From Qipengyuania sp. SS22 (GTDB lineage: Bacteria > Pseudomonadota > Alphaproteobacteria > Sphingomonadales > Sphingomonadaceae), in contig NZ_CP107048.1 in the NCBI RefSeq assembly GCF_025736935.1, positions 1,054,001-1,118,000 of the forward strand: DNA of 64,000 nt, given 5' to 3'. Shown piece by piece: positions 7,385 to 63,755 of this stretch (the stretch's first letter is position 1; every line of letters begins with the position of its first letter). Position numbers and translations under genes: made by a program. The notes beneath the pieces are model-generated. The model did no database searches and was not told where the DNA came from. It saw only the letters and a program-made list of their open reading frames with translations.

Positions 7385-8986
7385 TCAGATCTCCAGCGCG
7401 TAATCGTTGAACCGTTCACGCAGGTCCTTCTTGCTGATCTTGCCCGTCGCGGTGTGCGGGATGTCGTCGACGAACTCGACCGCATCGGGTAGCCACCACT
7501 TGGCCACCTTGTCGGACAGGAAGTTGATCACCTCTTCCGCGGTGACTTCCTGGCCGTCCTGCTTGACCACGAACAGCACCGGGCGCTCGTCCCACTTGGG
7601 ATGCATCATCCCGATGGCGGCGGCTTCGGCGACCGCCGGGTGGCCCACCGCCGCGTTTTCGAGTTCGACAGAGCTGATCCATTCACCGCCCGACTTGATT
7701 ACGTCCTTGGTCCGGTCGGTGATCTGCATCGTGCCGTCGGGGTGGAGGATCGCCACATCGCCAGTGTTGAACCAGCCGTCCGCATCGATCGCGTCTTCTT
7801 CGGCCTTGAAATAGCGCTTCACCACCCAGGGTCCGCGGATATGCAGCGCGCCCGAGCTTTCGCCGTCGCGCGGCAGCACCTTGGCCGGATCGTCGAGATC
7901 GACCGTGCGCAGTTCCACGCCGAAGATCGGGCGACCCTGCTTCATGGTCTTCTCGACCTTCTGGTCGAAGGTCAGCTCGTCCCAGTCGGTCGTCGGCCCG
8001 CCGACCGTCCCGATCGGCGAGGTTTCGGTCATCCCCCAGGCATGCTGGACGCGCGTGCCGTTCTTCATCAGCCGTTCGATCATGAAGCGCGGCGCGGCCG
8101 AACCGCCGATGGTCGCGGCGCGTAGCTTGGGCAGTTCGAGGTTGTTGGCGTCGCAATACTGGAAATGCGCCAGCCACACCGTAGGCACGCCCGCCGAGTC
8201 GGTGACCTTCTCGGCCTTCATTACCTCGTCGAGGACGGCCGGGTCGTTGACCGCGCTGAAGACGAACTTGATCCCCGCCATCGCTCCCGCATAGGGCAGG
8301 CCCCAGCTGGCCGCGTGGAACATCGGCACCACCGGCAACATCACCGACGACGCGGTAAAGTTGAAGGTCGACGGCTGCAGTCCGGCCAGCGCGTGCAGCA
8401 GCGTCGAGCGATGTTCGTACTGCACGCCCTTGGGATTGCCCGTGGTGCCGCTGGTATAGCAGATCATGCAGGGATCGCGCTCGTCGCCATCGACCCATTC
8501 GAAGTCGCCGTCCTGCGCGCCGATCCAGTCTTCGAAGCTGGTGGTGTGCTCGCCGCTGTCGAAGCAGATGTAATGCTCGACCGTGGGCCATTTGTCGCGC
8601 ATCTTGTCGACGATCGGCTGGAACGCCGCATCGTAGATCATCACCTTGTCCTCGGCGTGATTGACGATGTATTCGAGCTGGTCTTCGAACAGGCGCGGAT
8701 TGCAGGTGTGCAGCACGCCGCCCATCCCCGCGACGCCGAACCAGCTGACCAGATGGCGCGCATGGTTCATCGCGAGGCTGGCGACCTTGTCGCCCTTGCC
8801 GAGGCCCAGCGCCTGCAGCGCCTGGCTCATCTTCTTCGCATCACGGCGGACGCACGCCCAGTCGGTGCGGGTCTCGCTGCCATCCGCCCAGCGGGTGACG
8901 ATTTCGCGGTTCGGGGCTTCCCGGGCTGCGTGGTCGATCACATGCGAAATCCGCATGCTCCAGTCCTGCATCGCGCCAAGCGACAT
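7385..8986 (-). CDS. Acyl-CoA synthetase (AMP-forming), medium/long-chain type
   Basis: 533 residues, the normal size for the ANL superfamily. Motif A3 ([18 protein letters not shown], the phosphate loop), [10 protein letters not shown] (A5), [15 protein letters not shown] (A7), [15 protein letters not shown] (A8) and the C-terminal [15 protein letters not shown] with the catalytic Lys are all present. It activates a carboxylic acid to acyl-AMP and then acyl-CoA. The WISSVELE hinge and overall pattern resemble FadD/AlkK-like medium-to-long-chain enzymes, but the chain length cannot be read off. The ATG at 8986 starts [20 protein letters not shown]. Confidence 0.93.
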
Positions 8987-9006
8987 ATGTATTCCTCTCC
9001 ATTCTG

Positions 9007-9108
9007 GTCATTGCGAGGAGCCGCAGGCGACGCGGCAATCCAGCTTCGAACGTCGCAAATCGGAGCGACGGCGGGAAATGGATTGCGTCGCCTGCGGCTC
9101 GCAATGAC
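9007..9108. repeat. Dispersed inverted-repeat element, family B
   Basis: Two arms face each other: 9007-9042 begins GTCATTGCGAGGAGCCGCAG, and 9079-9108 ends CGCCTGCGGCTCGCAATGAC, its reverse complement apart from a short indel. About 36 bases separate them. The element fills almost all the gap between dnaE and the acyl-CoA ligase, so any terminator or promoter there must lie in or beside it. Confidence 0.88.
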
Positions 9109-9115
9109 TGTGTTC

Positions 9116-12100
9116 TCAGGCGACGAGGCGCAGGTTTGCCTTCCCCCGTCGCGCGGTTAACTGCACCTTGGCAAGGCCGGGCACACTTGCCAAGCGTTCG
9201 GCAAGCTCGCCGTCGATAGAAAATGTTCGCCCCAGCCGCACAATGGGCGGGCTGGGATCACCGGTCATCAGGGTCGCGACCGCTTCGTCGCCCCCCTCGC
9301 CGCCCTGGCCCAGCACGATCGCCAGCTCGCCCAGCGCGGCGACGCTCTCGATCTCGAGCGTGAGCAGCATCGCCATGGTGCCCTTGACCGCTTCCAGCGG
9401 AACCGCACCCCGCACGGTGATCCGCGGCGGTTCGTCGGGGCTCGGGCTGTCGAGTTCGACATCGAGCTTCACACAGGTCTGGTCCTGCGCCCACTGGAGG
9501 AATTTCTCGACCAGTCCCTCTTCGAAACAGGCGGCGCTGAACTGGCCCGAACTGTCGGAGAAATCGGCCCGCACAAAGGGTTTGCCGCGCCGGGTGGTGC
9601 CCTTGTTCACCTTCTCGACCATGGCCGCCATCACCGCGCCCGCCCGGCCGCCTACCGGCCCCCCGCCGACCATCAGCGAGGCATAGCTGCGCGCACCCTG
9701 AGCGCTCGCCACCTGCCGCCATGCCTCGACCGGATGCTCGGCAAAGTAGAAGCCGAAGTTTTCCTTCTCGCGTGCCATCAGCTCGGCGCGCGGCCAGGGT
9801 TCAGCCTCTTTCAACCGCAGCACATCCTCGACCGCCGCCCCCTCGCCGCCGAACAGGCCGCCCTGCCCGCTCGACCGCTCGCGCTCGGCCGCATCGGCGA
9901 CCGCCAGCAGCATGTCGGCATTGGCGAACAGCTTGGCGCGGTCGGGTTCGAATTCGTCGAGCGCGCCCGCGCTGATCAATGCCTCGAGCTGGCGCGAATT
10001 CATCGAGCCCCTGGGCAAGCGCTCGAACAGATCCTTGAGATTTTCGAAACGGCCGGCGGTTTCACGCTCCTCGACGATCGCTTCCATCGCGCGTTCGCCG
10101 ACATTGCGGATTCCCGCCAGCGCATAGCGCACGGCGTAACCGTCGTCGGTCTGCTCGACGGTATATTCGGCCTCCGAGTGATTGAGCGAGGGCGGCAGCA
10201 CCGTGATCCCGCTGCGCCGCGCATCGTCGACGAAGATCGCCAGCTTTTCGGACTGGTGCATGTCGAAACACATCGCCGCGGCGTAGAATTCCTCGGGGTA
10301 ATGCGCCTTGAGCCACGCGGTCTGGTAGGCGAGCAATGCATAGGCGGCGGCGTGCGACTTGTTGAAACCGTAACCGGCGAACTTGTCGATCAGGTCGAAC
10401 AGCGCATTGGCCTCGGCCTTTTCGATCCCGCTGACTTCCCTGCACCCGGCAACGAAGCGTTCGCGCTGGATATCCATCTCGGCCTGGACCTTCTTGCCCA
10501 TCGCGCGGCGCAGCAAATCGGCGTCGCCGAGCGAATAGCCGGCCAGGATCTGCGCCGCCTGCATCACCTGTTCCTGGTAGACGAAGATGCCGTAGGTCTC
10601 GGCCAGGATGCCTTCGAGCTTGGCATGCGGAAACTCGATCGCAACCTCGCCCGCCTTGCGTTTGCCGAACAGCGGGATGTTGTCCATCGGACCCGGACGG
10701 TAAAGCGAGACGAGCGCGATGATGTCGCCGAAATTGGTTGGCTTCACCGCGGTCAGCGTGCGCCGCATGCCTTCCGATTCCAGCTGGAACACGCCCACCG
10801 TGTTGCCCGCCTTCATCAATTCGTAGACCTTGGGATCGTCGAGCGGCAGCTTGGACAGGTCGATGTCGATCTCGCGCCGCTTGAGCAGGTCGACCGCCTT
10901 CTTGAGCACCGACAGTGTTTTCAGGCCGAGGAAGTCGAACTTGACCAGCCCCGAGCTTTCAACATTTTTCATGTCGTATTGCGTGACCGGCATGTCCGAG
11001 CGCGGATCGCGGTAGAGCGGCACCAGCTTGGCCAGCGGCCGGTCGCCGATCACCACGCCCGCCGCGTGGGTCGAACTGTTCCGCGGGAAGCCTTCGAGCT
11101 GCATCGCCAGGTCGACGAGGCGCTTCACCTCGTTGTCATTGTCGTATTCGTTCTTGAAATCGGCCGCCCCGTTGAGCGCGCGCGGCAGTGTCCACGGATC
11201 GGTCGGGTGGTTGGGCACCATCTTGCACAGCCGGTCGACATGGCCGTAGCTCATTTGCAGGATGCGCCCCGTATCGCGCAGCACCGCGCGCGCCTTGAGC
11301 TTACCGAAAGTGATGATCTGCGCGACGTGATCGTGGCCGTATTTCTGCTGGACGTAGCGGATCACCTCGCCGCGGCGGGTTTCGCAGAAGTCGATGTCGA
11401 AGTCGGGCATCGAGACGCGTTCGGGATTGAGGAAGCGTTCGAACAGCAGGCCGAGCTGGATCGGGTCGAGATCGGTGATCGTCAGCGACCAGGCGACGAG
11501 GCTGCCCGCACCCGAACCACGCCCCGGTCCCACGGGAATGTCGTGGTCCTTAGCCCATTTGATGAAGTCGGCAACGATCAGGAAGTAGCCCGGGAACCCC
11601 ATCTGGTTGATGATGTCGACTTCGAACTGCAGCCGGTCGAAATAGACCTTGCGTTCCTCCTCGCTCATTTCGCCATAGGGCGCGAGCCGCGCCTCCAGCC
11701 CCTTGCGGGCATCTTCCTCAAGCGCGCGCGCCTCGCCTTCAAGGTCGCCCGCGAGGCTGGGCAGGATCGGCTTGCGATAGGGCGGCGCATAGGCGCAGCG
11801 CTGCGCCACCACCACGGTGTTCTGAACCGCTTCGGGGAGGTCAGCGAAGGCCTCCTCCATCATGTGGCAGGTTTTGACGTAACTTTCGGGGTTCGACCGC
11901 GCGCGTTCCTCCGCATCGACATGCGTCGATCCCGCGATGCACAGCATGGCGTCATGCGCCTTGTGCATGTGCGGTTCGGCGAAATTGGCAGGGTTGGTCG
12001 CCACCAGCGGCAGGTCGCGGGCATAGGCGAGGTCGACCAGCGCCGCCTCCGCGCGTTCTTCCACTGCATCGCCGCGGCGGGCCAGTTCGATGTAGAGCCG

Positions 12101-12607
12101 GTCGGGGAACAGCGCCTGCAAGCGATCGAGCAGCGCCTCGGCATGGCTCTGCTGCCCCTCGGCAAGCAATCTGGTCACCGCGCCTTCGCTCGCGCCGGTA
12201 AAGGCGATCAGCCCGTCGGTGCGACCGCCCAAGTCTTCCAGCCGAACATGCGGTTCGAATTCGAGCGGGCGTTCGAGATGCGCCTTCGAAACAAGGTGGC
12301 AAAGGTTGTCATAACCCGTCTCGTCCTGCGCAAACAGCGGCAGGTAATCGACAAGCTTGCCCTCCGCCCCTTCTTCGCGGCTTGGGCGCGCAACACCCAG
12401 CAGCGCTCCGATGATCGGCTGCACACCTTCGGCTTTGCAGGCATTGGCGAACATGACCGCGCCATACAGGCCGTTGCGGTCGGCAATCGCGATAGCGGGA
12501 AAGCCGCGTTCCTTCGCCAGCTTCGCCATCGCCTTGGGGTCGATCGCGCCTTCCAGCATCGTATAGGCCGACAGGATACGGAACGGGACGAAGGGCTTGA
12601 AGGACAT
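9116..12607 (-). CDS. dnaE: DNA polymerase III alpha subunit
   Basis: 1163 residues, normal for DnaE1. The replicative polymerase core shows GPGRGSGAGSLVAW and MPDFDIDFCETRRGEVI with two catalytic aspartates, GVFQLESEGMR, and GYGFNKSHAAAYA. An OB-fold region follows near the C terminus. The N-terminal PHP domain reads FRILSAYTMLEGA, where a metal-binding PHP domain would have His-Ser-x-Tyr-Ser, so this proofreading-like domain is probably inactive. The start ATG at 12607 (MSFKPFVPFR) is preferred to one 36 bases upstream because it fits the family N terminus. LolC/LolD upstream is common synteny in alphaproteobacteria. Confidence 0.96.
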   Translation of the reverse strand: MSFKPFVPFRILSAYTMLEGAIDPKAMAKLAKERGFPAIAIADRNGLYGAVMFANACKAEGVQPIIGALLGVARPSREEGAEGKLVDYLPLFAQDETGYDNLCHLVSKAHLERPLEFEPHVRLEDLGGRTDGLIAFTGASEGAVTRLLAEGQQSHAEALLDRLQALFPDRLYIELARRGDAVEERAEAALVDLAYARDLPLVATNPANFAEPHMHKAHDAMLCIAGSTHVDAEERARSNPESYVKTCHMMEEAFADLPEAVQNTVVVAQRCAYAPPYRKPILPSLAGDLEGEARALEEDARKGLEARLAPYGEMSEEERKVYFDRLQFEVDIINQMGFPGYFLIVADFIKWAKDHDIPVGPGRGSGAGSLVAWSLTITDLDPIQLGLLFERFLNPERVSMPDFDIDFCETRRGEVIRYVQQKYGHDHVAQIITFGKLKARAVLRDTGRILQMSYGHVDRLCKMVPNHPTDPWTLPRALNGAADFKNEYDNDNEVKRLVDLAMQLEGFPRNSSTHAAGVVIGDRPLAKLVPLYRDPRSDMPVTQYDMKNVESSGLVKFDFLGLKTLSVLKKAVDLLKRREIDIDLSKLPLDDPKVYELMKAGNTVGVFQLESEGMRRTLTAVKPTNFGDIIALVSLYRPGPMDNIPLFGKRKAGEVAIEFPHAKLEGILAETYGIFVYQEQVMQAAQILAGYSLGDADLLRRAMGKKVQAEMDIQRERFVAGCREVSGIEKAEANALFDLIDKFAGYGFNKSHAAAYALLAYQTAWLKAHYPEEFYAAAMCFDMHQSEKLAIFVDDARRSGITVLPPSLNHSEAEYTVEQTDDGYAVRYALAGIRNVGERAMEAIVEERETAGRFENLKDLFERLPRGSMNSRQLEALISAGALDEFEPDRAKLFANADMLLAVADAAERERSSGQGGLFGGEGAAVEDVLRLKEAEPWPRAELMAREKENFGFYFAEHPVEAWRQVASAQGARSYASLMVGGGPVGGRAGAVMAAMVEKVNKGTTRRGKPFVRADFSDSSGQFSAACFEEGLVEKFLQWAQDQTCVKLDVELDSPSPDEPPRITVRGAVPLEAVKGTMAMLLTLEIESVAALGELAIVLGQGGEGGDEAVATLMTGDPSPPIVRLGRTFSIDGELAERLASVPGLAKVQLTARRGKANLRLVA

Positions 12608-12672
12608 AGCAGCCAATATGCGGTGCGGGAGGGGATTCGCCAACCCGCGCGCGCCGCGCTTTCCTCCGTTCC

Positions 12673-12759
12673 GTCATCCCTGCGAAGGCAGGGATCCAGA
12701 TAACGGAAACGTTTCGCCAAAGGCTTGCTTGCCTGGGCCCCTGCCTACGCAGGGGCGAC
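12673..12759. repeat. REP-like inverted pair, family A variant
   Basis: The unit GTCATCCCTGCGAAGGCAGG at 12673 (stem ATCCCTGC / GCAGGGAT) is matched by an inverted unit ending at 12759 (stem CCCCTGC / GCAGGGG around CTAC). The design is the same as the pair at 5647-5728 but with C-T substitutions. It sits between gpx and dnaE, with about 35 bases separating the units. Confidence 0.8.
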
Positions 12760-12775
12760 AGTCATTGCCTAGGAG

Positions 12776-13255
<480 letters not shown>

Positions 13256-13354
13256 GCGGGGCTATTCCTTGCAGCGACGAACAAGTGGGACAGGATCTGC
13301 ACGCGCGGCGCTGACCGCGCAAGCGCGGCCATTGCTGGCGCGAGGCAGCCCCAT

Positions 13355-13633
13355 TCAGGCGGCAGGGAAATCCGGGCGCTGCGACAGGCCCGCCACCTCG
13401 GCAGCGTGATATTCGCGGTCGCCCGCCTTCTCGATGCAATATTGCGCGCGTTCGTCTTCGGGCATCAGCATAATGTGGCGGATCAATTCGGCGAAAGTTC
13501 CGCTGCGCAGCCCTTTGGCCGCATCGAGCACACCGTCGCCGTCATCCACGCGGTGCAGGCTGGCACGGTCATCCCATTCGATGCCGTGGCGGTGGTTGTC
13601 GTCGCCTTTGAAAGTGCTGGGGTGGTCGGTCAT
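13355..13633 (-). CDS. Small hypothetical protein, 92 aa
   Basis: No family is recognised. The protein is acidic, rich in Asp and His (MTDHPSTFKGDDNHRHGIEW) with a later helical stretch TFAELIRHIMLMPEDERAQYCIEKAG. It has no signal peptide or membrane segment. The ATG at 13633 has a GGAGATTT-type ribosome site. Codon use matches its neighbours. It lies between lolD (47 bases downstream of that stop) and gpx on the same strand. Confidence 0.6.
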   Translation of the reverse strand: MTDHPSTFKGDDNHRHGIEWDDRASLHRVDDGDGVLDAAKGLRSGTFAELIRHIMLMPEDERAQYCIEKAGDREYHAAEVAGLSQRPDFPAA

Positions 13634-13680
13634 GAAAATCTCCTTCGCGAAACCTACGATCGAACCGGCTTGCGGGTCCG

Positions 13681-14367
13681 CTATGCCAGCACGCCGTCGT
13701 GCAGCCGGACCACGCGGTCCATCCTTTGCGCCAGGCGTTCGTTATGCGTCGCGATCAACGCCGCGCTGCCTTCGCCGCGCACCAGCCCGAGGAATTCGGC
13801 GAGCACCTTGTCGGCGGTGGCCTCGTCGAGATTCCCGGTCGGTTCGTCGGCCAGCACAAGATCGGGTTTGTTGGCCAGCCCGCGGGCAACCGCCACGCGC
13901 TGCTGTTCGCCGCCCGATAGCTGGCTCGGTCGATGATCGAGCCGATGCCCGAGCCCCAGCGCGACCAGCAATTGGTCGGCGCGCGCCTCCGCCTCCCCAT
14001 GCGGGCGGCCAGCGACAAGCTGGGGCAGGACGACATTTTCGCGCGCATCGAAATCGGGCAGCAAGTGATGGAACTGGTAGACGAAGCCGAGATGGTCGCG
14101 GCGCAGCACGGTGCGCGCGCGCGAGTTCGATTTTTCCGCCGAATGGCCGGCAATGACGATCTCACCGCCGAAGCCACTCTCGAGCAGGCCGACCGCCTGG
14201 AGAAGCGTCGACTTGCCCGATCCCGAAGGACCCAGCAGCGCGACGATCTCGCCCGGACGGATCGCGAGGTCGACGCCGCGCAGCACGTCGATTCGCTCGC
14301 CGCCCTGTTCGAAGCTGCGGGTAAGCTGTTTGAGCTCGACTACCGGTTTCACGCCCGAATTACTCAT
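13681..14367 (-). CDS. lolD: Lipoprotein-releasing system ATP-binding protein
   Basis: A 228-residue ABC ATPase. Walker A is [19 protein letters not shown], the Q-loop is in [14 protein letters not shown], the signature is [16 protein letters not shown] and Walker B is [13 protein letters not shown], followed by the H-loop IATHNERLA. The FQFHHLLP segment is typical of LolD. With the permease gene immediately upstream (eight-base overlap), it powers extraction of outer-membrane lipoproteins from the inner membrane for transfer to LolA. Confidence 0.94.
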
Positions 14368-15601
14368 AACGCAGCACCTGCACGGGATCGGTGTTTGCCG
14401 CCTTCCACGCGGGGTAGAGCGTAGCCAGGAAGCTGAGGCCCAGCGCGAGCAAGGCGATCATGGTCACTTCGCTGCCATCGACCTTCGACGGAATAGTGGT
14501 GAGGAAGCGATATTGCGGGTCCCACAGGTTTTGCCCCGTCAGCGCGCCGATCGCCTGCACGATCTGTTGCCGCCCGGCGAGGATCGAAAAGCCCAGCGCA
14601 AGGCCCACCACCGTGCCGATCGCGCCCACGGTAAACCCGGTGGTGACGAAGATTTTCATCAGGCTTTGCCGCGACGCCCCCATGGTCCGCATGATCGCAA
14701 TGTCGCGAGTCTTGGCACGCACCAGCATGACCAGGCTGGAGAGAATGTTGAACGCTGCCACCAGCACCATGAAACTGAGCGCGAAGGCCATCGCCGCGCG
14801 CTCGACCTGCAAGGCATCGAAGAGCGTCGCGTTGATGGTCTTCCAGTCGTTGACCACCGCACGGCCGCCAAGCGAAGAATTCAGCGGGGCCATGATTTCG
14901 CCGACCTCGTCGGCATCCTCCACCGTGACCTCAATCATCTGCACACTGTTTCCGATAAGCAGGAGCGTCTGCGCATCCTGCATCGGCATCACGACGAAGG
15001 CACCGTCGTAATCGTAGACGCCGACCTCGAAAATGGCGGCGACCTCATAGCCGATCTGGCGCGGCATGGTGCCGAAGGGGGTCGAACGTCCCTGGAGGTT
15101 GATGACCGTAATTGTATCGCCGACGCGGGCGCCGATGTTCTCGGCGAGCCTGACCCCGATTGCGACCTTGTACGCGCCCGGCTGGAGCGCCGAGAAATCG
15201 CCGCTGATCGCCTTGCTCGAAAGGTCGTCGAGGTCTTCCTGCCTATTACCGCGCACCGATACGCCTTCGACGCGGCCGTTGAAACTGATCGCCAGCGGTT
15301 GTTCGATCAGTGGGCTTGCATCGACCACACCCGGCGTCTGACGCACTTCTTCAAGAATGTTCTCCCAATCGTCCATCCGCCCGCCATAGGCCTGGACGAT
15401 GGCATGGCCGTTGAGGCCGACGATCTTGTCGAGCAGTTCGGCGCGAAATCCGTTCATCACGCTCATCACCACCACCAGCATGGCGACCGAAAGCATCACC
15501 ACGCCGATCGAGATGCTTGCCACCAGGGCAATGAAAGCCTCGCCCTTGCCCGGAAGCAAATAGCGTTTGGCGATGGTCCATTCGAAGGGGGAGAGGATCA
15601 A
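14360..15601 (-). CDS. Lipoprotein-releasing ABC transporter permease, LolC/LolE family
   Basis: A 413-residue FtsX-like permease with one N-terminal membrane segment (residues about 22-48), a large periplasmic domain, and three C-terminal segments (about 275-300, 320-345, 375-398). The start [15 protein letters not shown] and [14 protein letters not shown] match LolC/E. Alphaproteobacteria often have one permease that works as a homodimer with LolD. The frame opens with a TTG at 15601; no ATG is available before the conserved region, and AGGG lies upstream. It is divergent from purF across 169 bases. Confidence 0.92.
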
Positions 15602-59057: not shown

Positions 59058-59308
59058 GTTTGCGCTTTGCGCACCCGCATCCTCGGGGCTGTTCCTCCGT
59101 CGCTGCGCTCCTGCGGGCCCCTGCGGGCGGCCGGTCGGCCTTGCCGTTCGCTGGTCGCGAACGGGACTCGCGCGGTAGGATAGCGGGTCGCGATGATCCC
59201 GAGCTGCAGGCGAGGCAAGGGCGACCGCCCGCCCGCAGCGGGTGCAGCTTGCTGCACATCTAGCGAGGACGAACCCGCGGATGCGAGTTCGAAAAGCAAA
59301 AACTCCCC
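59058..59308. repeat. Roughly 250-base imperfect palindrome (MITE-like or structured element)
   Basis: This fills the 315-base gap after proA, which has no gene. The left side (from GTTTGCGCTTTGCGCACCCG) and the reverse complement of the right side (from GTTTTTGCTTTTCGAACTCG) match in series: the GCATC..CGGG block, TGCGGG, GGGCGG..GGTCG.CCTTGCC and CGCG near the centre (about 59180). Arms are near 100 bases. A perfect GTGCAGC/GCTGCAC hairpin lies at 59242-59257. It could be a MITE, a folded RNA, or an old inverted duplication. Confidence 0.6.
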
Positions 59309-59367
59309 CCTCCCCCTTCCCCTCCCCAAGTTTTCCTACTCGCGCCAAATCTGCTCCACCCCCGCAG

Positions 59368-60222
59368 ATGGACGACCCGAACCCCGACACCGCCCCCACC
59401 CAACACCCCCACACCCCGCGCGGCACGCTGCCCGACTTCACCCCCGTCCCGCGCCTGCGCGAGCGCTCGAACGGCTGGAAACCGCAGGTCCAGCGCGCCT
59501 TTATCGAGGCGCTGGCCGATACCGGCAGCGTCGCCAGCGCCTGCCGCCGCGTCGGCCGCGCCGAGGTCGGCGCCTATCTCCTGCGCCGCCACCCCGAGGC
59601 CGCCAGCTTCCGCAAGGCGTGGGAAGTCGCGCTCGATCTCGGCATGCGGCGGATCGAAGATGTCGCGATGGACCGCGCGCTCAATGGGGTCGAGGTGCCG
59701 GTCTATTCCTATGGCAAGCTGGTCGGCAGCCGCACGGTGCATAACGACCGGCTGCTGATGTTCATGCTGCGCAACCGCGCGCCCGAGCGTTTTGCGGAGG
59801 GCAAGCCCAAGGGCCTCAACGCGGTGGGCAAGATGGAGACCGAGCGGCTCAAGAAGCAATGGCGCAAGGAATGGGAAGCCGAGCGCAACGCCGGCGCGGG
59901 CGAGGAAGAGGCCGAAACGCTGCGTTCGCTCAACACCAAGCTGAACGCGGGCTACGAGAACTGGTACGCCCAGCTAAGCCCCCGCACCCGCGCGGCGTGG
60001 GAGGAGTACAAGCGGCTGGAGGCGCTCGACCAGGAGGAAGGCTACCTCTGCTACGACGACCCCGAGCATGAGCTCTATGACGATCCCGACGCGCGGTGGG
60101 ACGAGGTGGACGAGGCGATGCCGTTACCGGCCCCGGAGAGGGGTGTGTGGGAGGCGCCGGAGGAGCCTGCCGAAGACGACGGCCCTCGCTGCCGGACGAT
60201 CAAGGATGACGGGTGGGATTGA
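59368..60222 (+). CDS. Terminase-small-subunit-like HTH protein
   Basis: 284 residues, no named family assigned with certainty. Residues 25-150 follow the layout of phage terminase small-subunit-type proteins: VQRAFIEALADTGSVASACR, RAEVGAYLLRRHPEAASFRK, and VPVYSYGKLVGSRTVHNDRL followed by LLMFMLRNRAPERF. The second half is acidic and helical (ERLKKQWRKEWEAERNAG, LYDDPDARWDEVDEAMPLP) without phage context. Similar proteins are common, unannotated, in Sphingomonadales. The ATG at 59368 follows a leader similar to that of the next gene. It stands alone, with no large terminase nearby. Confidence 0.65.
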   Translation: MDDPNPDTAPTQHPHTPRGTLPDFTPVPRLRERSNGWKPQVQRAFIEALADTGSVASACRRVGRAEVGAYLLRRHPEAASFRKAWEVALDLGMRRIEDVAMDRALNGVEVPVYSYGKLVGSRTVHNDRLLMFMLRNRAPERFAEGKPKGLNAVGKMETERLKKQWRKEWEAERNAGAGEEEAETLRSLNTKLNAGYENWYAQLSPRTRAAWEEYKRLEALDQEEGYLCYDDPEHELYDDPDARWDEVDEAMPLPAPERGVWEAPEEPAEDDGPRCRTIKDDGWD

Positions 60223-60264
60223 GCCCCAGCTTTTCACACACCCTGCGGCTCGCTGAGCCCGCAC

Positions 60265-60357
60265 CGGTCTGGCGCTAGACCGCGAGGCGCAGCCGAGTGC
60301 AAGCGCGACCGCGCGCCGCGGCTTATGCCGCGTAGCCAAGGGGCGCGGATGCGCCCC
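60265..60357. repeat. Three consecutive perfect hairpins
   Basis: In the 205-base gap before vsr: CGGTCT / AGACCG with a six-base loop (60265-60282), CGCGGC-TTAT-GCCGCG (60317-60332), and GGGGCGC-GGAT-GCGCCCC (60340-60357). All stems are exact. They could stop transcription from the preceding gene, or fold as a small RNA. There is no T run. Confidence 0.6.
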
Positions 60358-60427
60358 GCCCGGCGCTTGAGGGCGCAAACAAAAGACTCTCTCGCCCCGC
60401 TACCCATTCTTACCTACTAGCGCCCCG

Positions 60428-60841
60428 ATGGTGGACAACCTCAGCCCGGAAGACCGCAGCCGCTTGATGTCTCGTATTCGTGGGAAGGATACGAAGCCCG
60501 AGCTGATCGTGCGCCGACTCGTACACAGGATGGGCTATCGCTTCAGGTTGCACCGTCGCGATCTTCCGGGAAGCCCGGATTTGGTGTTTCCGGGGCGCAA
60601 AAAGGTGATCTTCGTCCACGGCTGCTATTGGCACCGCCATGATTGTAAAAAAGCGACGATGCCGAAGACCAACGTTAAGTTCTGGAAAAAGAAATTTGAC
60701 GAAAACGTGATTAGGGACAATAATAACGTGAACGACTTGATCGAACTGGGGTGGGATACGATGGTCGTGTGGCAATGCGATGCCGAAAAGTCGGGAAATC
60801 TCGCCGAACGTTTGGCGGATTTCTTGGGGGACGCTCAATGA
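60428..60841 (+). CDS. vsr: Very short patch repair endonuclease
   Basis: 137 residues. All Vsr catalytic and zinc residues are seen and fall at E. coli numbering: D51 (GSPDLVF), H64, C66, W68, H69, H71 and C73 in VHGCYWHRHDC, N93 and D97 in ENVIRDNNNV, and C117 in VWQCDAE. It nicks next to T:G mismatches formed by deamination of 5-methylcytosine. The gene has no clear ribosome site. It overlaps the methyltransferase start by four bases. Confidence 0.93.
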   Translation: MVDNLSPEDRSRLMSRIRGKDTKPELIVRRLVHRMGYRFRLHRRDLPGSPDLVFPGRKKVIFVHGCYWHRHDCKKATMPKTNVKFWKKKFDENVIRDNNNVNDLIELGWDTMVVWQCDAEKSGNLAERLADFLGDAQ

Positions 60842-61866
60842 GTGCGCGCCCAGAAGTCGTCGATCTCTTTTGCGGGGTCGGTGCCCTTAGCCACGGCCTG
60901 AAGCTTGCCGGGTGCAGGATACTGGCCGGATACGATACGGACGAGCGATGCAAGCACGCCTTCGAGACAAACAACGGAGGCGAATTCGTCAAACGTGACG
61001 TCGGTAAGATGTCGGCGTACGAAATCATGGGTCGCTATTCGGGCGACGCGCCTAGCGTTTTGGCAGGATGCGCGCCGTGTCAGCCGTTTTCGACATACAA
61101 GCAGCGATACGCCGAAGACCCTCAATGGGGGCTGGTGCGGAAATTCGCCGAATTGGCTGCCGAGGTGCAACCCGACTTCGTCACGATGGAAAACGTGCCG
61201 TCGCTTTTGCGCTATAAGGATGGTTCCGTGTTTCGCATGTTCAAAGACATTTTGAATGAAGCGGGCTATCCGTTGAGAGTAACCGTCGCGAAATGCGAAT
61301 TGTTCGGCGTGCCGCAGAAGCGCCGCCGGTTGGTTGTTGTAGCAGCCCGTGGACGAAAGATCGGGCCGCTGATCCCCGCTGAGAATGTAGGCCGAACGGT
61401 CAGGGAGGCCATAGGACACCTTCCCCCAATCGAAGCGGGAGCAAAACACGCCAACGACCCGCTTCATACATCATCATCGCTATCCGACTTAAACATGCGC
61501 CGGATGAAAGCTGCCAAGCCGGGAGGCACGTGGCGAGACTGGCCGGAAGACTTACGCGCGGACTGCCATCGACGAGCGAGTGGCAAGACTTATCCGGGTG
61601 TTTACGCCAGAATGATGTGGGACGAACCGGCACCCACAATGACAACCCAATGCTTTGGCTTTGGGAATGGGCGCTTCGGCCATCCCGAACAAGATCGAGC
61701 AATCAGCTTGCGAGAGGCTGCACTCCTGCAATCGTTTCCCGAGGGCTATGAATTCGTCCCAACTAACGAGAAGCCGAGCATGAAGGAAGTTGGTCGTTGG
61801 ATTGGCAATGCCGTGCCGGTTGAACTAGGGCGGGCGATTGGAAATACAATTTTGGTGGGGCTTTGA
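60838..61866 (+). CDS. DNA (cytosine-5) methyltransferase
   Basis: 342 residues. Motif I is VVDLFCGVGALSHG (9-20), motif IV is AGCAPCQPFSTY with catalytic Cys81, motif VI is MENVPS, motif VIII is QKRRRLVVVAA, and motifs IX-X are REAALLQSFP and GNAVPVELGRAIG. A target recognition region of about 80 residues lies before motif IX (residues 210-285), without a guessable target. It makes 5-methylcytosine, the base whose deamination vsr repairs. It starts inside vsr and is followed three bases later by the GHKL ATPase gene. Confidence 0.93.
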   Translation: MSARPEVVDLFCGVGALSHGLKLAGCRILAGYDTDERCKHAFETNNGGEFVKRDVGKMSAYEIMGRYSGDAPSVLAGCAPCQPFSTYKQRYAEDPQWGLVRKFAELAAEVQPDFVTMENVPSLLRYKDGSVFRMFKDILNEAGYPLRVTVAKCELFGVPQKRRRLVVVAARGRKIGPLIPAENVGRTVREAIGHLPPIEAGAKHANDPLHTSSSLSDLNMRRMKAAKPGGTWRDWPEDLRADCHRRASGKTYPGVYARMMWDEPAPTMTTQCFGFGNGRFGHPEQDRAISLREAALLQSFPEGYEFVPTNEKPSMKEVGRWIGNAVPVELGRAIGNTILVGL

Positions 61867-61869
61867 TCT

Positions 61870-63543
61870 ATGGCCATAGAGCATGATGCAAAAGACTATC
61901 AATTCGCGATTTCCCTCAGCGTTCTCAACCATTTGGGTAGAAACCTCTATCGGAATTTCGTAACTGTTCTTGGTGAAGCGATATCCAATTCTTGGGACGC
62001 TGACGCGACGAGAGTATGGATTGATATCGATCGAGAGAATGACAGTTTTATGATCTCGGATGATGGGGTGGGAATGACGTCGGATGATTTTGAGAATAAG
62101 TTTCTCAAGATTGGATATTCGAAACGCAAAGAAGGGGGAATGGCAAGCGTCAAAGGAAGGCCCTATATTGGCGCCAAAGGTATTGGAAAGCTTGCCCTCT
62201 TATCTTGCGCAGATAAAGTGTCCATTTTCACTCATACCGAAGGCACCCCTTATACTGGCGGCGTTATCATAAATGAGCAGCTTGATGCTGCGATTCAAAA
62301 TGATCTAGTCCCCGATCAGTATCCGTTGGAACAACTTGATTACGATCTCATCGAAGACGTGTTCGAAAGAGATAAACATGGAACCACGATAGTTTTTGAA
62401 GGAGCCGGTCGCGTTCTCAGTAATACTGATGGCTACATCAGAAAAATCCTGGCCCTATCTTTTCAATTTAGTCTGATTGATCCAAATTTCACTATCTACG
62501 TGAACGATGAGGAGATAGCAGTCCACGACCTCGCGGATCTTTCCAAGAATACACAATTCTTGTGGACAATTAACGGGTACGACGATGATTACTTGGGAAC
62601 GCTCGACAAGTTAGCGAGGCCCAAAGAAGAATTGACCACAGACCTAGCGATTTCCGGATATATAGCTTCGGTTGAATTACCGAGACATGCGAAGATACAC
62701 GGGATGGACGAACGGGTGACTATCGATCTTTTCGTCAACGGGAGAGTGAGAGACAAAAACGTTATAAGGCATGTTCCCACCCAGCGAATTGTCGAAAGCT
62801 ACATATACGGGCAACTACATTTCGATGGTCTCGACCGCGAGAATGCGGACCCTTTCACAAGCAGTCGTGAGGGCATCGTAGAAAACGACGTGGAGTTTAA
62901 AAAGCTCCTAGAATACATACAGAAGGTCTTACTGCCGAAGGTCTTCGATGATTGGGACAAATTTCGCGGAGAAATCGGCAAGGAAGGCGATGATGAAAAT
63001 CCTCGCCGGACGAAAAAGGAGAGAAAAGCCGCCGCCCTCGTCTCAGCAGCCGAAGAGGAATTCACCGAGGACCTTCCACCTGAGCAGAAAAATACCGTTG
63101 ATGGGTGGGTGAATGAAATCCGTCCCGACGCACAATTTAACGTGGCTGCTTACATCGATTGCTTCTTGTCAGAAAATTTGGTCCGCAAATTCATGAGCGA
63201 GAAGGATATTGCCGTTCACAACTCGGTGACAGGCGAGGTTACGAAATATCGCACCAGAGAAACGCAGGCAAAACAAAGGGCTAACATAAACTTCGACGTT
63301 CGCCGTGGTGACGACGATTTGCTTTATCTGGGCATGAATGAGCTTGCTATTTGTGCTGAAGGGGGCGCTGCTCAAGACGGTCAAGTGAATCCAATGGTTC
63401 AATCTGCAACCGCCTACAAACCAGTGCGCGATGCAGTTGGGCATACAAGTCGATTGGCAGATCCCGCCAAATTGCATCTGACCGTTACCTTCGAAAATAT
63501 AAAGGGGCGGGTAAAGACGCTGTTGAGCGAGATGGAACCCTAG
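61870..63543 (+). CDS. GHKL ATPase (MutL/Hsp90/MORC-type) linked to vsr and a 5mC methyltransferase
   Basis: 557 residues. The Bergerat fold is complete: N-box LGEAISNSWDADATRVWI (E36, N40, D43), G1 SDDGVGMT (64-71), G2 YIGAKGIGKLALLSC (99-113), and GTTIVF for the last motif. Residues 280-350 read VTIDLFVNGRVRDKNVIRHV and FDGLDRENADPF, resembling an S5-fold transducer. The C-terminal 200 residues have no recognised domain and no nuclease motif. Codon and base use are visibly AT-richer than the chromosome. It follows the methyltransferase by three bases. Confidence 0.85.
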   Translation: MAIEHDAKDYQFAISLSVLNHLGRNLYRNFVTVLGEAISNSWDADATRVWIDIDRENDSFMISDDGVGMTSDDFENKFLKIGYSKRKEGGMASVKGRPYIGAKGIGKLALLSCADKVSIFTHTEGTPYTGGVIINEQLDAAIQNDLVPDQYPLEQLDYDLIEDVFERDKHGTTIVFEGAGRVLSNTDGYIRKILALSFQFSLIDPNFTIYVNDEEIAVHDLADLSKNTQFLWTINGYDDDYLGTLDKLARPKEELTTDLAISGYIASVELPRHAKIHGMDERVTIDLFVNGRVRDKNVIRHVPTQRIVESYIYGQLHFDGLDRENADPFTSSREGIVENDVEFKKLLEYIQKVLLPKVFDDWDKFRGEIGKEGDDENPRRTKKERKAAALVSAAEEEFTEDLPPEQKNTVDGWVNEIRPDAQFNVAAYIDCFLSENLVRKFMSEKDIAVHNSVTGEVTKYRTRETQAKQRANINFDVRRGDDDLLYLGMNELAICAEGGAAQDGQVNPMVQSATAYKPVRDAVGHTSRLADPAKLHLTVTFENIKGRVKTLLSEMEP

Positions 63544-63755
63544 GAACCTATTCCTTGTCCCACAATCAGCAGAGCGGCGATTGACGCGTCCTGCGGGATG
63601 GTTACGTGGCCCGCCACTTTCGCGGGGGTAGGCCGCCCTTCAGGCGATCGCGCGTTCTTCGTCGCTTTGCGTCTTCGCGCGGAGCACCTCTCGCCCGCCG
63701 TCGGGCGCCGCTCCACGATTGCTGGGGCAATCGCTCCATGCGCCCGCAAAATCCC
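63544..63755. other. 212-base intergenic region, end of the accessory segment
   Basis: No gene or clear terminator is seen. The sequence returns to high GC with short imperfect palindromes, and a block CCGCAAAATCCCCTACC near 63745-63760 overlaps the stop of the next gene. Confidence 0.5.

Follow-up and report, generated by a model that had tools for sequence, protein, structure and literature searches.

Restriction-modification (R-M) operons combining GHKL ATPases, cytosine methylases and Vsr have been known since 2008, and paraMORC3, a GHKL family, carries an E-D-ExK nuclease (Iyer 2008, PMC2292703). GHKL ATPases of the paraMORC type fused to HEPN domains of the Ymh family have been reported in R-M neighborhoods and likened to PrrC/RloC (Anantharaman 2013, PMC3710099), and VcSduA, a Shedu type I-D protein consisting of a GHKL ATPase and a PD-(D/E)xK nuclease, defends against phage on its own and requires both the ATPase and the nuclease (PMC12137116). 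Here we analyzed an operon encoding Vsr, a C5-cytosine DNA methylase and a 557-aa GHKL ATPase in Qipengyuania sp. SS22 (contig NZ_CP107048.1, positions 1,054,001 to 1,118,000, a stretch of 64,000 nucleotides referred to as the window), whose genome is a single contig of 2.68 Mb and 100% complete by the assessment tool's own figure.

Since operons of this make-up were already on record in 2008 (PMC2292703), the combination of genes is in itself nothing new; what a first-pass annotation of this DNA had overlooked is the altered C-terminal effector. The GHKL protein shares its GHKL module (residues 10-375), the kind of methylase and the adjoining position of the two genes with BbrUII/HgiDII (NF050001) and paraMORC3. 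However, where these have a C-terminal PD-(D/E)xK nuclease, it has a predicted helical, HEPN-like domain. We consider the chances about even that the operon is a mobile R-M-like defense cassette related to BbrUII/HgiDII, with an ATPase that responds to unprotected DNA by activating a putative HEPN-like RNase. No literature on this combination of methylase, GHKL ATPase and HEPN-like domain was found among open-licence PubMed Central papers.

The two parts of the GHKL protein

The 557-aa protein matches NF050001 ("BbrUII/HgiDII family restriction enzyme") over residues 10-375 (E-value 5e-82, 276.4 bits), and two PADLOC type II restriction-enzyme models (REase_II) also match its N-terminal part. 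The NF050001 match is limited to profile positions 1-370 of 659, and the score stays under the curated cut-off of 550 bits because the remainder of the profile finds no match. For comparison, eight BbrUII/HgiDII-type relatives from plasmids, a phage and other genomes were aligned; seven of them were scored on NF050001, and all seven pass (650.6-800.8 bits). Their C-terminal block, in which R541, D543, H553, K559 and R560 are invariant among the eight, looks like the E-D-ExK nuclease of paraMORC3, and weak SduA_C matches below the cut-off occur in two of the seven. Alignment of the window-family profile with these eight relatives was confined to its first 374 columns, and the C-terminus of the window protein has no alignable counterpart in their nuclease part. 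SduA_C (PF14082, Shedu) does not match the window protein, and neither does an MzaB-type ATPase (Mza system) at E ≤ 0.01 in NCBIfam or PADLOC.

Judged from these comparisons of sequence, the 557-aa protein is the ATPase module of a restriction enzyme with a different C-terminus. The first-pass annotation had described the operon as lacking a restriction enzyme, which is not borne out by the matches to NF050001 and REase_II. It had also named a restriction nuclease fused or adjacent in close relatives as evidence that would count against its proposal. A fusion of this sort, of the GHKL module with a PD-(D/E)xK nuclease, exists among the wider relatives but is absent from the immediate family. 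Escherichia phage PhiR44_1 (L030, 5995-9043) also encodes a BbrUII/HgiDII-type protein of full length, annotated as "ParaMORC3", whose gene is convergent with a Dcm gene and lies between portal and replication genes of the phage.

The domain that replaces the nuclease was aligned between the window protein and seven relatives, which are 44-48% identical to the window sequence in this part (four of the 11 relatives introduced below, L028, L029, L066 and L106, were left out). E435, N436, R439, K440, R520, V523, H525 and T526 are invariant in the eight sequences, and the residue after R520 is N in six and D in two, giving the motif R-[N/D]-x-V-x-H. In the AlphaFold2 model built from this alignment, R-x4-H ends the helix at residues 133-151 of the fragment, just before the last helix, and E-x3-R sits within an earlier helix. 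HEPN domains are marked by an Rx4-6H motif at the end of helix-3, in which the R is mostly followed by N, D or H; many HEPN families have a second acidic residue in helix-2, typically within Ex3[KR] (PMC3710099). Among 20,000 shuffles of the alignment columns, a test devised after the motif had been noticed, an Rx4-6H-type motif appeared in 123 and both motifs in 2; the 375-residue N-terminal part contains neither.

The motifs, the predicted fold and weak fold matches suggest that the C-terminal domain is probably of the HEPN type, with a putative RNase activity. If this is true, it belongs to a HEPN-type subfamily recognized by none of the libraries searched. The published paraMORC-Ymh fusions (Anantharaman 2013) are alike in that a HEPN-type domain follows the GHKL ATPase at the C-terminus and the surroundings are R-M genes, and differ in the HEPN family: none of the eight C-terminal sequences matches Ymh HEPN PF09509, and hhalign of the window domain with two Ymh proteins gave no significant match. 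The paraMORC-HEPN fusion in R-M loci is an idea published in 2013 for the Ymh family, of which the window protein would be another HEPN-like variant.

The three genes are intact and closely coupled, as the first-pass annotation had described them. The open reading frame (ORF) check found its coordinates (Table 1), four bases of overlap between vsr and the methylase gene, three bases between the latter and the GHKL gene, and no internal stop in any of them. Profile matches likewise uphold a complete Vsr (TIGR00632, 143.9 bits vs. a cut-off of 97.85), a complete methylase (PF00145, 176.8 bits across residues 7-338, over the cut-off) and the GHKL domain (PF13589, 69 bits vs. a cut-off of 25). The AT-rich composition that had been claimed holds relative to the window (64% GC), with 53% GC in vsr, 57% in the methylase gene and 47% in the GHKL gene.

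Table 1. Positions of the operon, its protein parts and the surrounding cassette in the window.
Feature	Position	Strand	Description	Basis
vsr	60428-60841	+	137 aa, very-short-patch mismatch endonuclease, accessory	ORF check, TIGR00632
C5-cytosine DNA methylase	60838-61866	+	342 aa, ATG start at 60838	ORF check, PF00145
GHKL ATPase with HEPN-like C-terminal domain	61870-63543	+	557 aa	ORF check, PF13589
N-terminal GHKL module, residues 1-375	61870-62994	+	homologous to BbrUII/HgiDII ATPase part	hhalign probability 100, E 4.4e-63
C-terminal all-helical domain (predicted), residues 376-557	62995-63540	+	replaces PD-(D/E)xK nuclease	AlphaFold2 pLDDT 77, pTM 0.70
E435-x3-R439	63172-63186	+	candidate HEPN Ex3[KR] motif	invariant in 8/8 aligned sequences
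R520-D-A-V-G-H525	63427-63444	+	candidate HEPN Rx4-6H active site, at helix end	R and H invariant in 8/8
Cassette	60388-63751		bounds against genome G059	blastn of flanks
Cassette, alternative bounds	60211-63752 and 60385-64168		bounds against two other same-genus genomes	

The methylase partner, relatives and exchange of effectors

Eleven loci encode relatives with the window-type C-terminus (L028, L029, L064-L069, L072, L105 and L106), from two plasmids, four viral contigs and, in a genome collection covering 84,980 species, five contigs. They are partly redundant, with 99.5% likeness between the stretches of L065 and L066, about 94% likeness in the gene among L028, L064 and L065, and an identical protein encoded by L105 and L106; L029 is interrupted by an IS1380-type element. 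The methylase-GHKL pair is present in all 11, and in none does a vsr adjoin it within the DNA stretches compared, which upstream of the methylase cover about 690 bases in L064 and none in L072, and downstream almost none in L066 and L106. The earlier claim that the three genes are locked together thus stands for the methylase and the GHKL ATPase and not for vsr. Three of the 11 carry a vsr on the opposite strand, where its neighbors are an EcoRII-type gene and another methylase, and five of 19 other loci with a window-kind methylase hold a vsr. We thus regard Vsr as a recurrent accessory, a role that fits its known job at deaminated 5-methylcytosines (PMC8011034).

The neighborhood count called for by the first-pass annotation was made on 20 stretches, each surrounding a GHKL match, whatever its strength, in 196 near relatives and 385 genomes belonging to the class. 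Some C5 methylase is found in 13 of these stretches and Vsr in four, and accordingly GHKL-methylase association is common and GHKL-Vsr association occasional. Five of the 13 methylases (L080, L081, L083, L090 and L091) are of the window kind (E ≤ 2e-107).

In kind, the window methylase corresponds to those that accompany BbrUII/HgiDII-type enzymes, a likeness judged against the methylases beside NF050001-positive proteins, not against M.HgiDII or M.BbrUII themselves. It retains the probable specificity region, and the columns of the C5 methylase motifs PC, ENV and QxRxR are invariant in 16 of 16 aligned methylases. In a tree of 29 methylases, including that of the window and those of eight of the 11 relatives, eight of the nine HEPN-type methylases form one group with the nuclease-type L033 (support 100/99), within which L033 and the HEPN-like L068 are sisters (100/98), and the ninth HEPN-type methylase, L105, falls outside. 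Given the well-supported branches, the HEPN label must have changed twice or more; the outgroup sits on a very long branch, and the deeper nodes are not resolved.

Two further kinds of partner were observed beside this methylase. At L083 (4019-6956), a GHKL module fused to a TIR-type domain is convergent with a window-kind methylase, i.e., a third effector with the same partner. This arrangement, paraMORC4 GHKL-TIR (Iyer 2008, PMC2292703), shares the GHKL module and methylase kind with the window locus and differs in its TIR effector and convergent genes. At L113, L114, L116, L117, L118, L120, L121 and L122, a window-kind C5 methylase occurs together with a DUF262 protein and a MAE_28990-type HEPN nuclease. 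Loci of this composition lie on plasmids of Proteobacteria and Actinobacteria, and the DUF262 protein of L118 matches PADLOC NsnA (2e-58). They are alike in that the same kind of methylase adjoins an annotated HEPN nuclease, and differ in having DUF262 instead of GHKL and HEPN domains with no significant alignment to the window domain.

Somewhat short of an even chance, in our estimate, is the broader proposal that one platform of HgiDII-type C5 methylase and GHKL ATPase has been refitted repeatedly with different killing parts, among them a DNA nuclease and a TIR domain as well as a HEPN-type RNase. In that case the window operon would be an "altruistic" R-M system that reads unmethylated sites, degrades RNA and stops the cell, using a HEPN subfamily that no searched library recognizes.

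The chromosomal slot and its cargo

Of 60 same-genus genomes searched, the three whose copies of the upstream gene are closest share the flanks of the cassette (90-94% in two, 79-86% in the third) and hold in its place 3.3-3.5 kb of other DNA with no blastn match to it. This cargo (L130, L131 and L132), delimited by the copy of the upstream 326-aa gene and the common downstream flank, consists in the first genome of a dGTPase (PADLOC model, 3e-139), an HNH protein and a 221-aa protein, and in the second of a D12-class adenine methylase and a ParB-like protein. The third contains close copies (by eye) of the HNH and 221-aa proteins of the first, and two small proteins with Pfam matches below the cut-off only. 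Some of this cargo is defense-like. Family copies also occur on prophage contigs, among ORFs reading like phage tail genes (L069) and beside an integrase-like ORF (L072), and on plasmids. Because the slot holds other cargo and copies occur in prophages and plasmids, the operon behaves like a mobile defense cassette.

At L069, the methylase-ATPase pair is followed, about 1 kb further downstream, by a Ymh HEPN protein (8719-9519) that matches PADLOC PD-Lambda-3_B (8e-77). The 326-aa protein upstream of the cassette (window 59242-60222) has no Pfam match; its own genome contains five matches to it, and 58 of the 60 same-genus genomes also contain matches. The Qipengyuania genome also contains a second Vsr, Dcm and GHKL locus (L079, C1:2236000-2255000; 8688-15185), comprising a 718-aa HATPase_c_3 and HATPase_c protein, a 461-aa partner, an EcoRII-C restriction enzyme, Vsr and Dcm. 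It lies near an integrase-like ORF (by eye) and resembles the HEF_HK/Response_reg_2 modules of PMC8011034.

Proposed mechanism and alternative readings

In the mechanism we propose, the C5 methylase would mark recognition sites of the host, probably GTCGAC or a close sequence. The GHKL ATPase module would act as the sensor and detect sites on incoming DNA that lack the mark, a task that its restriction-enzyme relatives must also perform, and instead of causing DNA cutting it would switch on its own C-terminal HEPN-like domain, a predicted RNA cutter that may arrest or kill the infected cell. Vsr, as an optional partner, would repair T:G mismatches arising from deaminated 5-methylcytosines. Among the suggestions of the first-pass annotation, a defense system whose ATPase senses the state of DNA fits the evidence. 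Two points weigh against the proposed mechanism: profile searches, run with shallow alignments, lent the HEPN identity no support and found no significant relation to a HEPN family, and VcSduA works without a methylase and seems to spare its host (PMC12137116).

The latter case suggests a methylation-independent defense, in which the GHKL-effector protein alone senses a phage structure or protein and the methylase is a travelling companion. The parallel with VcSduA lies in a GHKL ATPase that, in phage defense, is proposed to govern the nuclease at its C-terminus; VcSduA differs in being a single gene with a PD-(D/E)xK effector; as it is methylase-free and apparently host-sparing, the analogy should not be stretched. 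The coupling of the methylase in all 11 relatives, with overlapping genes, and its kept specificity region argue against this reading, which we regard as unlikely. We give a similarly low probability to an ordinary type II R-M system, in which an unrecognized DNA nuclease or a part that binds DNA makes up the C-terminal domain, and unmethylated DNA is cut by the protein as it is by BbrUII/HgiDII enzymes. The ATPase module, methylase kind and gene order are indeed those of the restriction-enzyme family, but the nuclease region of the relatives has no alignable counterpart, the predicted C-terminal domain is all-helical, and its conserved residues are those of the RNase motif.

Far less probable is that Vsr provides the nuclease, or that the operon is a mismatch-repair module with the GHKL protein as MutL substitute. 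Vsr as nuclease and a mismatch-repair-linked module had been suggested at first pass, and a complete vsr does stand first in the operon, but in all 11 relatives the pair stands without an adjoining vsr in the DNA compared. The matches of the GHKL protein to MutL models are weak, covering 42-66 residues of the ATPase with less than 30 bits vs. 276 bits for the restriction-enzyme model. It is just as improbable that a restriction system has decayed here and is retained because of its methylase, with the GHKL protein as a non-catalytic remnant. The nuclease domain is absent and GC content differs among the three genes, as decay might leave them, but a replacement domain conserved at the identity given above, with invariant polar residues, is not what decay would produce.

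For annotation, a partial match to the "BbrUII/HgiDII restriction enzyme" model may denote a protein that cuts no DNA. The closeness of L033 and L068 in the methylase tree, together with a size of two genes, makes the defense cassette proposed here directly testable by domain mutation or exchange. If the proposal is true, methylation-based discrimination of self from non-self would be wired to abortive suicide within a two-gene operon, and the line between restriction-modification and abortive infection would be blurred.
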